A stretch of 10,190 nucleotides of DNA, taken from the NCBI GenBank assembly GCA_900764415.1, contig CAAFOA010000388.1, forward strand, positions 1-10,190, in the 5' to 3' direction. Origin of the DNA: an uncultured Collinsella sp. (GTDB taxonomy: Bacteria; Actinomycetota; Coriobacteriia; Coriobacteriales; Coriobacteriaceae). Of the stretch, positions 7,955 to 9,997 are shown in pieces. Numbering within the stretch: the first letter of the stretch is position 1; every line of letters starts with the position of its first letter. A program made the position numbers and the translations under genes. A model generated the notes under the pieces. That model saw only the letters and a program-made list of their open reading frames with translations. It ran no database searches and was not told the DNA's origin.

Positions 7955-8186
7955 GGCGCGCCTCCCAGTAGTTGCACCTCGCGAGCCCCTGCGTGGCGTG
8001 CACGAAGTCGGGGCAGCGCATGCACGTGTACCGCTTGCGGCCCTCGCCGGACGCCGCCATGACCGCCTCGCTCGCGGCGCAGAACCCGCACGTCTCGCAG
8101 CGGGCGCTGCGCGGCCCCTCGTCGTAGATGCTCGCGGACCCCTTCGGTCTGCCCATGTTCTCGCTCCTCTCGTCGTCCATGCTCAT
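7944..8186 (-). CDS. Small zinc-ribbon protein (80 aa)
   Basis: The real start is ATG 8186, overlapping the upstream stop by four bases (ATGA at 8183-8186), with AGGAGGG about 4-6 nt before it. The longer open frame to 8588 reads an antisense-like Arg/Pro-rich shadow of the initiator gene. ATG 8180 is a second choice with poorer spacing. The N-terminus has MGRPKGSAS, an AT-hook-like basic patch at about residues 11-19. Cys pairs at C30-x2-C33 (with C36) and C55-x2-C58 suggest a zinc ribbon, followed by FVHATQGLARCNYWEAR. It is a probable nucleic-acid-binding protein of unknown role. Confidence 0.72.
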   Translation of the reverse strand: MSMDDERSENMGRPKGSASIYDEGPRSARCETCGFCAASEAVMAASGEGRKRYTCMRCPDFVHATQGLARCNYWEARHEG

Positions 8187-9073
8187 GACGCCCTCCTCTC
8201 GCACGCGGCCCTCGCGTCCAGCAGGCGCCGCGCGTCCTGGTACGCCTTGAGCGCCACCGGGTCGGCGGTCGTCCCCCTCGGGGCCTTCACCTTTACCGGG
8301 TCGATGCCCGGGTGTTCCTCGCGCCACCTGCGCTCGAGCTCCGCCCTCGTCTGCTCGGGCGTCCTCGTCGGCTTGAACGTGGCGGCCTGGATTTCGGCAT
8401 CGGTCGGCTTGCCGCGGGCGTGGGCCTCGGCGTCGAGGCGCTTCTGGTTGCCGTTCCACAGCATCGCCGCGGCCTTGAGCGAGGCCACGGGCATCCCGTT
8501 CGAGCGGATCCAGCCCTGCGACTCGTAGTGCGCCCAGAACTTGTCGGGGTCGCCGCTGATGCAGTTGGCGGCGAAATACGCTCGGCACTCGTCGAGGGTC
8601 GGCGGGACGAAGCCGTCTGCGTCGCCGCCGCGCGTACCATCAACACAAGCTAGGCTAGGTAAAGCTAGGCTAGGACAGGTTAGGTTAGGGTTTTCGCTTT
8701 CGGAAACCTCGGTTTCTGGTTCTGAAAACCTAGGTTTCCCGTTTTCAAAACCTGGGTTTTCGCTTTCGGAAACCTCGGTTTCTGGTTTTTGCTCGGGCTC
8801 GGGTTCGGGCTCCGGCTCGGCCTTGGCCTTGCGGGGCCTGCCGCCCTTCTTGGCCTGCTCTCGCTTGTTCTTGGAGTTGTCGATGGCGTTCTTGAGCCCC
8901 TTGAAGGCCCTCTTGACGCTCTTTGGCAGCTCGATCTCGACCCCGTGGAGGCCGTACATGAGCACCGCGTCCGCGAGCATCATGCGCTCCCTCATGTCCT
9001 CGGGGTCGTTCGGGTCGTAATCGTCGTAAAGCTCGGCTATCGAGCTGGCGAAAACCGTGAAGTCGTTGGCCAT
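8183..9073 (-). CDS. Phage replication initiator-like protein (DUF6291 N-terminus)
   Basis: This 296-residue protein probably recognises the phage origin and recruits host helicase, the role of lambda O and replisome organisers. I chose ATG at 9073 (TGATG with the preceding gene, GGGGGTGG upstream) over TTG 9088. Residues 1-82 fit DUF6291: an acidic start, LADAVLMYGLHGVEIELP, then IDNSKNKREQAKKGGRPRK, ending in a basic AT-hook-like GGRPRK. Residues 83-150 are a Glu/Pro/Ser linker (EPEPEPEPE, then EPETEVSESENP twice). Residues 155-212 (TLDECRAYF...DPDKFWAHYESQGWIRSNGMPVASLKAAAMLWN) match the C-terminal domain common in DnaD-like phage initiators. The rest is charged helix. The linker DNA carries the iteron-like repeats described separately. 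No helicase or loader gene is seen in the window. DNA binding by the N-terminus is inferred. Confidence 0.8.
   Translation of the reverse strand: MANDFTVFASSIAELYDDYDPNDPEDMRERMMLADAVLMYGLHGVEIELPKSVKRAFKGLKNAIDNSKNKREQAKKGGRPRKAKAEPEPEPEPEQKPETEVSESENPGFENGKPRFSEPETEVSESENPNLTCPSLALPSLACVDGTRGGDADGFVPPTLDECRAYFAANCISGDPDKFWAHYESQGWIRSNGMPVASLKAAAMLWNGNQKRLDAEAHARGKPTDAEIQAATFKPTRTPEQTRAELERRWREEHPGIDPVKVKAPRGTTADPVALKAYQDARRLLDARAACERRAS
8647..8689. repeat. Three 15-bp tandem repeats next to the iterons
   Basis: AAGCTAGGCTAGG occurs at 8647-8659 and 8662-8674, and a degenerate copy AGGTTAGGTTAGG is at 8677-8689, all 15 bp apart. Unlike the neighbouring 22-bp repeats, these stay in frame and encode NLTCP, SLALP, SLAC. 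Together with the adjoining array the stretch 8641-8760 is 46% GC by my count (55 of 120), compared with 62% for 8521-8580. It may be a second protein-binding array or the unwinding region of an origin. Confidence 0.75.
8689..8790. repeat. Array of four 22-bp iterons, putative replication origin
   Basis: Four contiguous 22-bp units at 8689-8710, 8711-8732, 8733-8754 and 8755-8776 each begin GGTTT and end AAACCTN. A fifth partial unit starts at 8777. Units 1 and 4 are identical. Each unit boundary makes a palindrome AAACCTNGGTTT, with centres at 8709.5, 8731.5, 8753.5 and 8775.5. The array lies in the linker region of the initiator-like gene. Because 22 is not divisible by three, the period seen in the protein is 66 bp (22 residues), so DNA-level constraint is likely. 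By analogy with lambda O, this is a candidate origin bound by the encoded protein. Confidence 0.85.
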
Positions 9074-9183
9074 CAGAACCACCCCCAAAGGATTGAAGAG
9101 AAGAATAGGAACCCGGCGGCGAAGGAGGCGGCGAACAGGGCCGCCTCCCAGTGGTCGCGGATGATGTCGTGTACGTGCCTCAT
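9073..9183 (-). CDS. 36-residue single-pass membrane peptide
   Basis: ATG at 9183 shares a base with the stop of the single-stranded DNA-binding gene (TGATG), and its own TGA is joined the same way to the initiator start at 9073. These junctions, and the lack of any other gene here, support it as real despite its size. The sequence has a charged N-terminus (MRHVHDIIRDHWE) and then about 22 hydrophobic residues with AALFAASFAAGFLFFSSILW, one membrane helix. GAGG lies 13 nt upstream, so translation probably depends on termination of the upstream gene. The role is unknown; small membrane peptides of this kind occur in phage early regions. Confidence 0.65.
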   Translation of the reverse strand: MRHVHDIIRDHWEAALFAASFAAGFLFFSSILWGWF

Positions 9184-9659
9184 CAGAACGGCACGTCCTC
9201 GTCGTAGAACTCGGACTGCGGGGCCGCGGCGTAGGCCTGCTGGGCGCTCCACTGCGGCGCGGCCTGCGCCTGTGGCTGCATGGGCACCGTGTTCGCGAGG
9301 CTCTGCTGCGGCTGGGCCTGCGTCTGCCCCTCGCGGCGCACCATGACCTCGATCTCGTCGACGATAACCTCGAGCTTCGAGCGCTTCTGGCCGTCGCGCT
9401 CCCAAGAGCTGTAGCGCAGCTTGCCCTCGATCGCGACCTTCATCCCCTTGGCGAGGAAACGGCCAACGGCCTCGGCGCGGTTGCCGAACATGGTGCAGTC
9501 GACGAAGTTGGGATAGTCCTCCCACTCGCCCGTCTGCGCGTTGCGGCGGCGGTCGTTTACCGCCACGCCAAAGGACAGGACCTGCGTGCCGCCGGCGGTG
9601 GCGCGAAGCTCGGGGTCGCGGGTGAGGTTGCCGCTGATGTTCACTCGGTTGATGCTCAC
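9183..9659 (-). CDS. ssb: Single-stranded DNA-binding protein
   Basis: The 158-residue protein coats single-stranded DNA at the phage replication fork and recruits partners through its C-terminal tip. GTG at 9659 is the start: AGGAGG sits 7 nt upstream and GTGA overlaps the stop of the preceding gene. The longer frame to 9764 is a shadow of that gene. Residues 1-110 form the OB fold with recognisable segments: INRVNISGNLTRDPELRATAGG, FGVAVNDR, FVDCTMFGNRAEAVGRFLAKGMKVAIEGKL and a final strand near IVDEIEVMV. Residues 112-150 are a Gln/Ala/Pro-rich linker. The tip YDEDVPF matches the conserved acidic D(D/E)xPF motif. It sits in a replication cluster, as is usual in phages. Confidence 0.95.
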   Translation of the reverse strand: MSINRVNISGNLTRDPELRATAGGTQVLSFGVAVNDRRRNAQTGEWEDYPNFVDCTMFGNRAEAVGRFLAKGMKVAIEGKLRYSSWERDGQKRSKLEVIVDEIEVMVRREGQTQAQPQQSLANTVPMQPQAQAAPQWSAQQAYAAAPQSEFYDEDVPF

Positions 9660-9997
9660 TGCCCGTCCTCCTTTGTGGTCATGCAGCCCTTGATGGCATC
9701 GACGAGGCGCGGCCCCTGCATGTAGCCCAGGCCGCTCACGCGGCGGCCGTCGCGGATATGGCACACCTCGACGATCTTCTGCGCCGTGACCGGGCCGATG
9801 CCCGGGAATGAGCGGGCGAACTCCTCGACCTTGAGCCTCTGCGCGATGGGCGCCTCGATGGCGACCTCGGGCGGGATGTTGCCCGCCTTGCAGGCGGCCT
9901 TGAACGCGGCGCGCTCGCGGCGCGTGTGGACGGCCTTCGCCATCGCCTCCTTGCGCTGCTCAGGCGTTCGGAGCGGCGGTAGGTTTTTCTCCTCCAT
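9656..9997 (-). CDS. Actinobacterial integration host factor (mIHF)-like protein
   Basis: The 113-residue protein probably bends or organises DNA, like mycobacterial mIHF (Rv1388 C-terminal domain), which is unrelated to the HU/IHF-alpha/beta fold. The family's layout is seen in order: LPPLRTPEQRKEAMAKAVHTRRERAAFK (residues 6-33, matching LPPLT-EQRAAALEKA--ARRARAELK), a short linker, then LKVEEFARSFPGIGPVTAQKIVEV (about 55-78, corresponding to MKVSALLEALPKVGKVKAQEIM) and the helix-hairpin DNA-contact block RRVSGLGYMQGPRLVDAI. ATG 9997 follows the upstream stop by three bases, with AGAGGA about 9 nt away. Next comes the single-stranded DNA-binding gene, then the initiator, so a role in origin architecture or in integration is plausible. 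Alignment is by eye from memory of the family. Confidence 0.8.
   Translation of the reverse strand: MEEKNLPPLRTPEQRKEAMAKAVHTRRERAAFKAACKAGNIPPEVAIEAPIAQRLKVEEFARSFPGIGPVTAQKIVEVCHIRDGRRVSGLGYMQGPRLVDAIKGCMTTKEDGQ

Follow-up and report, generated by a model that had tools for sequence, protein, structure and literature searches.

A palindrome array in the linker DNA of a DUF6291-like phage gene is a probable replication origin

We analyzed a 10,190-base stretch of DNA (referred to throughout as the window) and found that a DUF6291-like gene in it carries four 22-bp units, each with one palindrome, inside the DNA that codes for a linker between two protein domains. This array is a DNA element: periodic elements built on an AAACC half-site recur in the linkers of diverse relatives of the gene, are independent of the reading frame, and, in the records searched, occur almost nowhere but in the linker; the relatives scanned have replication genes as neighbors. 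We conclude that the array is probably a theta-type phage replication origin, or the initiator-binding part of one, embedded in its own initiator gene. In the mechanism that we propose, the N-terminal domain (DUF6291-like, with a basic GGRPRK tail) would bind AAACC half-sites; because the palindromes are two helical turns apart, bound dimers would share one face of the DNA, where they would stack and strain it. An AT-rich tract with a 5-bp period next to the array would then melt. Recruitment of the replicative helicase would fall to the C-terminal part of the protein, acting together with SSB and a helicase loader. What is new here is that the family had no assigned function and that the same half-site occurs in two topologies.

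Results

The gene, its protein and its phage setting

The gene encodes a 296-residue protein when read from the ATG matching position 9073, the start used by most aligned relatives (alignment A1); the listed open reading frame begins at a TTG at 9088 and has 301 residues. The gene, its two domains and its upstream neighbor are as follows.

8183..9073, minus strand: DUF6291-like gene, putative initiator (ORF call, PF19808 and PHROG_15768 matches)
8825..9073, minus strand: N-terminal three-helix domain with the basic GGRPRK tail at its end, the proposed origin-binding domain (AlphaFold model)
8183..8620, minus strand: C-terminal helical part, the proposed helicase or loader contact (full model; function suggested by position and relatives)
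9183..9764, minus strand: ORF coding for an SSB domain at aa 38-140, the next gene upstream of the initiator gene (PF00436, PHROG_44)

The window protein matched DUF6291 (PF19808) with an E-value of 3.7e-5 and 24.2 bits, the Pfam gathering cut-off being 27.2, and it matched PHROG_15768 at E 4.6e-16. Five of the six relatives scanned against DUF6291 scored from 29.0 (L040, whose N-domain is 45% identical to that of the window protein) to 77.9 (L027), and the sixth, L009, scored 26.0. At E 1e-3, the Pfam scan of the window protein returned DUF6291 alone, with no lambda O, RepA_N, DnaD or DnaB_2 family, and the NCBIfam scan returned no match; we therefore liken the protein to known initiators by its mode of working and do not class it as a member of their families. 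The AlphaFold model of the N-domain has three helices (mean pLDDT 85.3, pTM 0.70), and residues A36, Y40, F57, D65, G74, G77 and G78 are nearly invariant among 46 sequences. Searches with this domain in Foldseek and VIA-align gave no trustworthy structural match and so lend its candidate DNA-binding role no structural support; its GGRPRK tail has what we take to be a resemblance to an AT-hook. In the full model (whole-protein pTM 0.29), helices lie within residues 165-300, where pLDDT is mostly ~80-90.

The SSB assignment of the upstream ORF is strong (PF00436, E 8.8e-29; PHROG_44, E 6.5e-48), and domain and PHROG scans placed terminase and portal genes farther along, which identifies the window as phage or prophage DNA. 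In the window proteins that they covered, these scans identified neither a helicase nor a loader. A relative of the initiator gene is present in the genome record of Collinsella aerofaciens strain MCC370. Upstream of the SSB domain, a small phage ORF (9656-9997) that overlaps the listed SSB ORF encodes an S13-like H2TH domain (PF22525, E 9.6e-10).

Relatives of the gene point to its being an initiator. Ten neighboring proteins, hand-picked from 22 loci, comprised four DnaB-like helicases, three DnaC-like loaders, two SSBs (one of them weak) and one protein of an unknown family with a weak helicase-loader match. Among these hand-picked neighbors, a DnaB-like helicase or DnaC-like loader gene directly followed the initiator-family gene in 7 relatives. 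The L027 protein matches, over residues 62-211, a PHROG named replisome organizer, and in L131 a DUF6291 N-domain and a repeat-bearing linker are joined to a C-terminal DnaB_2/DnaD domain.

A 22-bp array read in three frames

The array and its palindromes occupy the following positions.

8688..8790, minus strand: linker array made up of four 22-bp units, one palindrome per unit (TRF, repeat copies, motif search)
8704..8715, no strand: palindrome AAACCTCGGTTT, exact AAACC-NN-GGTTT
8726..8737, no strand: palindrome AAACCTAGGTTT, perfect, exact AAACC-NN-GGTTT
8748..8759, no strand: palindrome AAACCTGGGTTT, exact AAACC-NN-GGTTT
8770..8781, no strand: palindrome AAACCTCGGTTT (second occurrence), exact AAACC-NN-GGTTT

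An earlier sequence-only reading of the window had described 22-bp units with palindromes, each unit translated in a different frame from its neighbors. Both parts held on closer analysis. TRF reported positions 8689-8789 with a period of 22 and 4.6 copies; the four 34-nt repeat copies start at 8688, 8710, 8732 and 8754, so that the spacing is exactly 22, 22 and 22, and all four palindromes are free of mismatches. The units are not identical: repeat copies 1 and 4 are 100% alike over 34 nt, and copies 2 and 3 are 71% and 68% identical to copy 1. Outside the four array sites, AAACC-NN-GGTTT was absent from the 10,190 bases even with one mismatch allowed. Because 22 is not a multiple of 3, neighboring units fall into different frames and the protein motif returns only every 66 bp, as the translation confirms (KPETEVSESENP ... 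EPETEVSESENP).

Identity at lag 22 in the window linker was 0.64, compared to 0.554 when codons were permuted within the linker (p=0.0016) and 0.433 under the codon usage of the gene (0/20,000 as high). The number of boxes was above gene-usage resampling (p=0.004) and not above within-linker codon permutation (p=0.48), and the codon choice of this linker is itself uniform (AAA, GAA, GTT, TTT). No other 100 bp of the window is as rich in AT as the array, which lies within an otherwise GC-rich gene. The array is bordered on its N-terminal side by a 6-bp repeat (8791-8820, coding EPEPEPEP) that is absent from relatives such as L002.

A family-wide 11-bp period in linker DNA

An HMM of the N-domain, built from 12 relatives, gave 171 hits in 128 distinct ORFs among 248 sequences (247 loci and the window). 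Linkers with an N-domain score of at least 40, at least 30 codons past the domain and no N numbered 102, and merging those that shared 8-mers yielded 65 clusters, in which the window is represented by L001. As a null, synonymous codons were permuted inside each linker, with the protein and the codon set fixed. Part of the sample had been fetched with linker patterns (ENPGFENG, NVNVN[ED]N, EPEVSESE, QTKPNQTK and one array DNA pattern, which accounts for L030-L035; L031 and L035 entered the linker test and L034 the box count only). None of these patterns demands an 11-bp period, and they bias the sample toward palindromic, 5-bp and 6-bp linkers.

Among lags not divisible by 3, the best one was significant at p<=0.05 in 69 of the 102 linkers against permutation and in 77 of the 102 against gene usage, and palindromes with 5-bp arms, summed over the same linkers, numbered 214 versus 118 (permutation) and 98 (gene usage). 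Across the 65 clusters, the strongest period outside the codon rhythm was 11 bp (lag 11, z 17.4; 22, z 17.1; 33, z 7.8; 44, z 5.7; 55, z 3.8). Lags 5, 10, 15 and 20 were also raised (z 5.7-7.2), as were lags 6, 12, 18 and 24 (z 6.3-7.9; NVNVN-like tracts) and lag 23 (z 4.8), and no enrichment was seen at lags 16, 17 or 21. Outside the linker, these genes showed no signal at lags 11 and 22: the 65 N-domains gave z 1.5 and 1.2, respectively, and the 48 C-terminal parts z 0.9 and 1.0. Control windows taken from other genes at these loci (400 of 782) gave z -0.2 at lag 11 and 2.6 at lag 22. Runs at lag 11 or 22 occurred in 47/65 linkers, versus 45/400 control windows; the remaining 18 linkers had none at either lag. 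By clade, lag-11 runs occurred in 0/15 and lag-22 runs in 7/15 clusters (z 8.7) of the window's clade, and lag-11 runs in 37/50 (z 16.2) of the other.

AAACC/GGTTT was the top enriched 5-mer, with at least 2 copies in 53/65 linkers. Of 202 pairs of successive half-sites on the same strand, 81 were spaced by 11, 22 or 33 bp, compared to a null of 30.7 +- 4.0 (46 at 11 bp, null 12.3; 22 at 22 bp, null 10.5; 13 at 33 bp, null 8.0). Pairs 23-24 bp apart were likewise raised (29, null 10.1), while the off-phase spacings of 16, 17, 27 and 28 bp were found 10 times (null 14.5). Every reading frame was used, with 29% of spacings divisible by 3 (null 36 +- 4%).

These results bear on whether the repeats could be a by-product of selection on the linker protein as an acidic or polar disordered spacer. 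The linkers are indeed polar and repetitive across relatives, and that of the window is predicted to be disordered (residues 82-157, pLDDT <50 in the full model). However, most of the lag-11 and lag-22 signal disappears in permutations that keep both the protein and the codon set, and only 29% of the half-site spacings are divisible by 3. The codon-permutation tests already largely refute this explanation, to which we assign a negligible probability. The proposal that the repeat belongs to the DNA and not to the protein is thus supported, since half-site spacing and lags both exceed the permutations, and the suggestion of helical phasing is strengthened by a family-wide 11-bp period. Comparison of homologous linker DNA, which the same reading had put forward as a check, gave a concordant result: the 11/22-bp spacing and AAACC are kept across differing linker proteins, and the protein motif is not.

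Slippage in an unconstrained disordered linker, producing a minisatellite whose DNA periodicity has no function, is a further explanation to weigh. Copy number does vary in close relatives, mostly by 22 aa, or 66 bp (274, 296 and 318 aa), and the identity of units 1 and 4 over 34 nt is what a recent duplication would leave. Slippage alone, however, gives no preference for 11, 22 or 33 bp over 16, 17, 27 or 28 bp; it fails to explain the AAACC core in differing linkers or the near-absence of such repeats from other genes, and the 22-bp period persists between units that are only ~70% alike. We consider a minisatellite improbable.

Two layouts of one half-site

The two layouts were placed on a tree of the N-domains. 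In the window's clade (15 clusters), 7 linkers are palindromic, 1 combines both layouts and 7 have neither label; among the 50 clusters outside it, 21 are direct-only, 5 are palindromic, 3 combine both layouts and 21 have neither label. All 21 clusters with 11-bp direct AAACC pairs and no palindrome lie outside the window's clade, and under the strict label both the AAACC palindrome and the 11-bp AAACC pair are missing from 28/65 linkers.

The location of the palindromic boxes was determined in 14 phage records chosen for palindromic-looking linkers. The pattern AAACCN{1,4}GGTTT matched 22 sites in 11 of these records (3 records had no box), and a reversed control pattern matched 0 sites in the same 14. 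All sites but one (21/22) fell in the linker, the lone exception being the single site of G407 (L094).

Palindromes could also act as hairpins in RNA or single-stranded DNA, in attenuation or primosome assembly. The 8640-8800 transcript does fold more stably than shuffled sequences (-44.9 versus -33.2 kcal/mol, z -2.96, 0/200 as low), as would be expected of any inverted-repeat array. Hairpins do not account for the 21 of 65 clusters whose direct AAACC pairs occur without a palindrome, and an Rfam scan of the window returned nothing at gathering score. A hairpin function therefore seems very improbable to us.

An adjoining 5-bp-period tract

Next to the array lies a second repeat.

8643..8690, minus strand: 5-bp-period tract, downstream of the array in the direction of the gene, the proposed unwinding region (TRF)

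On the coding strand the tract reads CCTAA CCTAA CCTGT CCTAG CCTAG, and TRF reported it in two rows (8647-8675 and 8649-8689). Together with the array it forms the most AT-rich 150 bp of the window (150-mers starting at 8640-8642, AT 0.54 versus 0.35 overall). In the window's clade, 10/15 linker clusters had lag-5 runs (z 7.0) and 10/15 had lag-10 runs (z 7.7). The tract may be a strand-opening element, in which role it would presumably be loosely comparable to DnaA-trios. Several relatives of the window's clade have an equivalent tract of other letters (CCAAT CCAAA CCAGA ...) in the same place.

Discussion

Comparison with known in-gene origins

Initiator genes that contain their own binding sites are known from several systems. 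The iterons of lambda O, which lie mid-gene, are called inverted repeats in a review (PMC5043065), and the gene is described with an AT-rich tract adjoining its iterons, a layout like that of the window; two extra iterons in Stx phages make the O protein 13 residues longer (PMC7466680). The lambda iterons are annotated at 39034, 39054, 39078 and 39101, a spacing of 20-24 bp. As a positive control, the codon-permutation test on lambda O gave lags 44, 20 and 23 as the top excesses (p 0.003 each, 1/300), which fit the annotated iterons; lag 24 was not significant (p 0.24). The parallel with lambda drawn in the sequence-only reading therefore stands, as the annotated iterons lie inside gene O and the same test recovers them. 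The systems also differ: the lambda core is TCCCTC..GAGGGA and that of the window AAACC..GGTTT, domain-model scans found no lambda-O-type family for the window protein, many relatives of the window carry 11-bp direct half-sites, and the window's clade adds the 5-bp-period tract. In Nitratiruptor phage NrS-3, gp41 (annotated as hypothetical) gave lag 23 (35 bases versus 2.5, 0/300).

In pSK41, the N-terminal domain of Rep is reported to bind four Rep boxes central in the rep gene, and the stretch of protein encoded by the origin is the linker between the N- and C-domains (PMC5703833), which is also where the window array lies. RepA_N proteins have a winged HTH according to the same text (PMC5703833), whereas the window domain is predicted to be a plain three-helix fold; the Pfam scan gave no RepA_N match for the window protein, and RepA_N is a plasmid family, unlike the phage gene studied here. 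The SPP1 initiator gp38 is described as recognizing direct repeats located in the gene that encodes it, accompanied by an AT-rich unwinding element, and as acting with the helicase loader gp39 and the helicase gp40 (PMC6316719); we liken gp38/oriL to the window by layout only. For repABC plasmids, oriV is reported to lie inside repC, where silent changes abolish replication, although the part reported to matter is an A+T-rich stretch and the initiator family is another one (PMC3155836). DnaD/DnaB_2 replisome organizers are connected to the family through L131, the window protein itself having no DnaD or DnaB_2 match. Helical phasing is described for plasmid iterons (PMC5043065).

These comparisons also bear on a reading in which the initiator-binding repeats serve autoregulation, incompatibility or copy-number control by handcuffing, the true origin lying elsewhere in the phage. 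All of the evidence for a binding-site architecture fits this reading equally well. Against it, the boxes are near-confined to the linker in the 14 phage records, the AT-rich tract adjoins them, and the in-gene arrays of this kind that have been studied, in lambda O, SPP1 gp38 and pSK41 Rep, serve as origins. We regard a purely regulatory array as unlikely, and an origin, or its initiator-binding part, as the probable function.

What the array implies for DUF6291

No paper naming DUF6291 was found in the open-licence papers searched, and no report of this array was found in the open-licence literature by titles and the openings of abstracts. Our analysis gives this Pfam family of unknown function, which occurs in phages and prophages from several groups of bacteria, a concrete candidate function, namely origin binding with AAACC as the half-site, and it narrows the likely origin to ~150 bp. 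Within one gene family the half-site recurs every one or two helical turns, and the coding frame accommodates it. A broader reading, which we hold only tentatively and would put at somewhat below even, is that DUF6291 represents a widespread, hitherto unassigned class of domains that bind phage origins and have their own origin in the DNA of the linker. Such a class would use one AAACC half-site in two topologies, as direct repeats at each helical turn in one large clade and as palindromes spaced two turns apart in the clade of the window, which would add the 5-bp tract as a strand opener. Initiator and origin would then move and evolve as one self-contained cassette. Because the codon-permutation lag test needs sequence alone and recovers the lambda iterons, it could serve to screen other phage initiators for in-gene origins.

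Variation among close relatives

A protein search returned 207 relatives at E <= 0.001, and the counts that follow rest on the 120 matches listed. The lengths 274, 296 and 318 aa differ by steps of 22 aa, or 66 bp, which is three units, and some lengths break this step (for example, 289 aa). An NPNL-type junction was present in 113 of the 120 listed matches; among these 113, copies of the VSESEN-type motif numbered one in 59, two in 40, three in 13 and none in 1. With one motif copy in 59 of the 113, a four-box array is not required, although the one-copy count may be inflated, as short-read assembly could collapse 66-bp repeats. The four-unit array reported from the first reading is thus present in the window, but its unit number is not conserved among the listed close relatives.

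The Collinsella loci L002 and L005 have a different linker protein (KPVSDKPETQVSESENLGFSNG) and keep 22-bp phased AAACC/GGTTT with altered inner bases, and L006 and L021 contain GAAAC..GTTTC elements. Conservation of synonymous codons was higher in the linker than in the rest of the gene in 6/7 of the closest pairs and lower in several distant pairs.

Several minor observations concern the organization of the family. In alignment A1, the proteins P0073, P0081, P0105 and P0120 combine types of N-domain, linker and C-domain differently, as if recombined around the linker. Two plus-strand ORFs, at 905 in L009 and at 2473 in L146, encode a DUF6291-like N-domain followed by what by eye is an HNH-like nuclease, with no linker or C-domain; the one in L009 sits just upstream of an initiator-type copy. 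In contig 15 of genome G014 (L016/L037), two equal-scoring DUF6291-like matches lie ~1.3 kb apart, apparently a duplicated gene.
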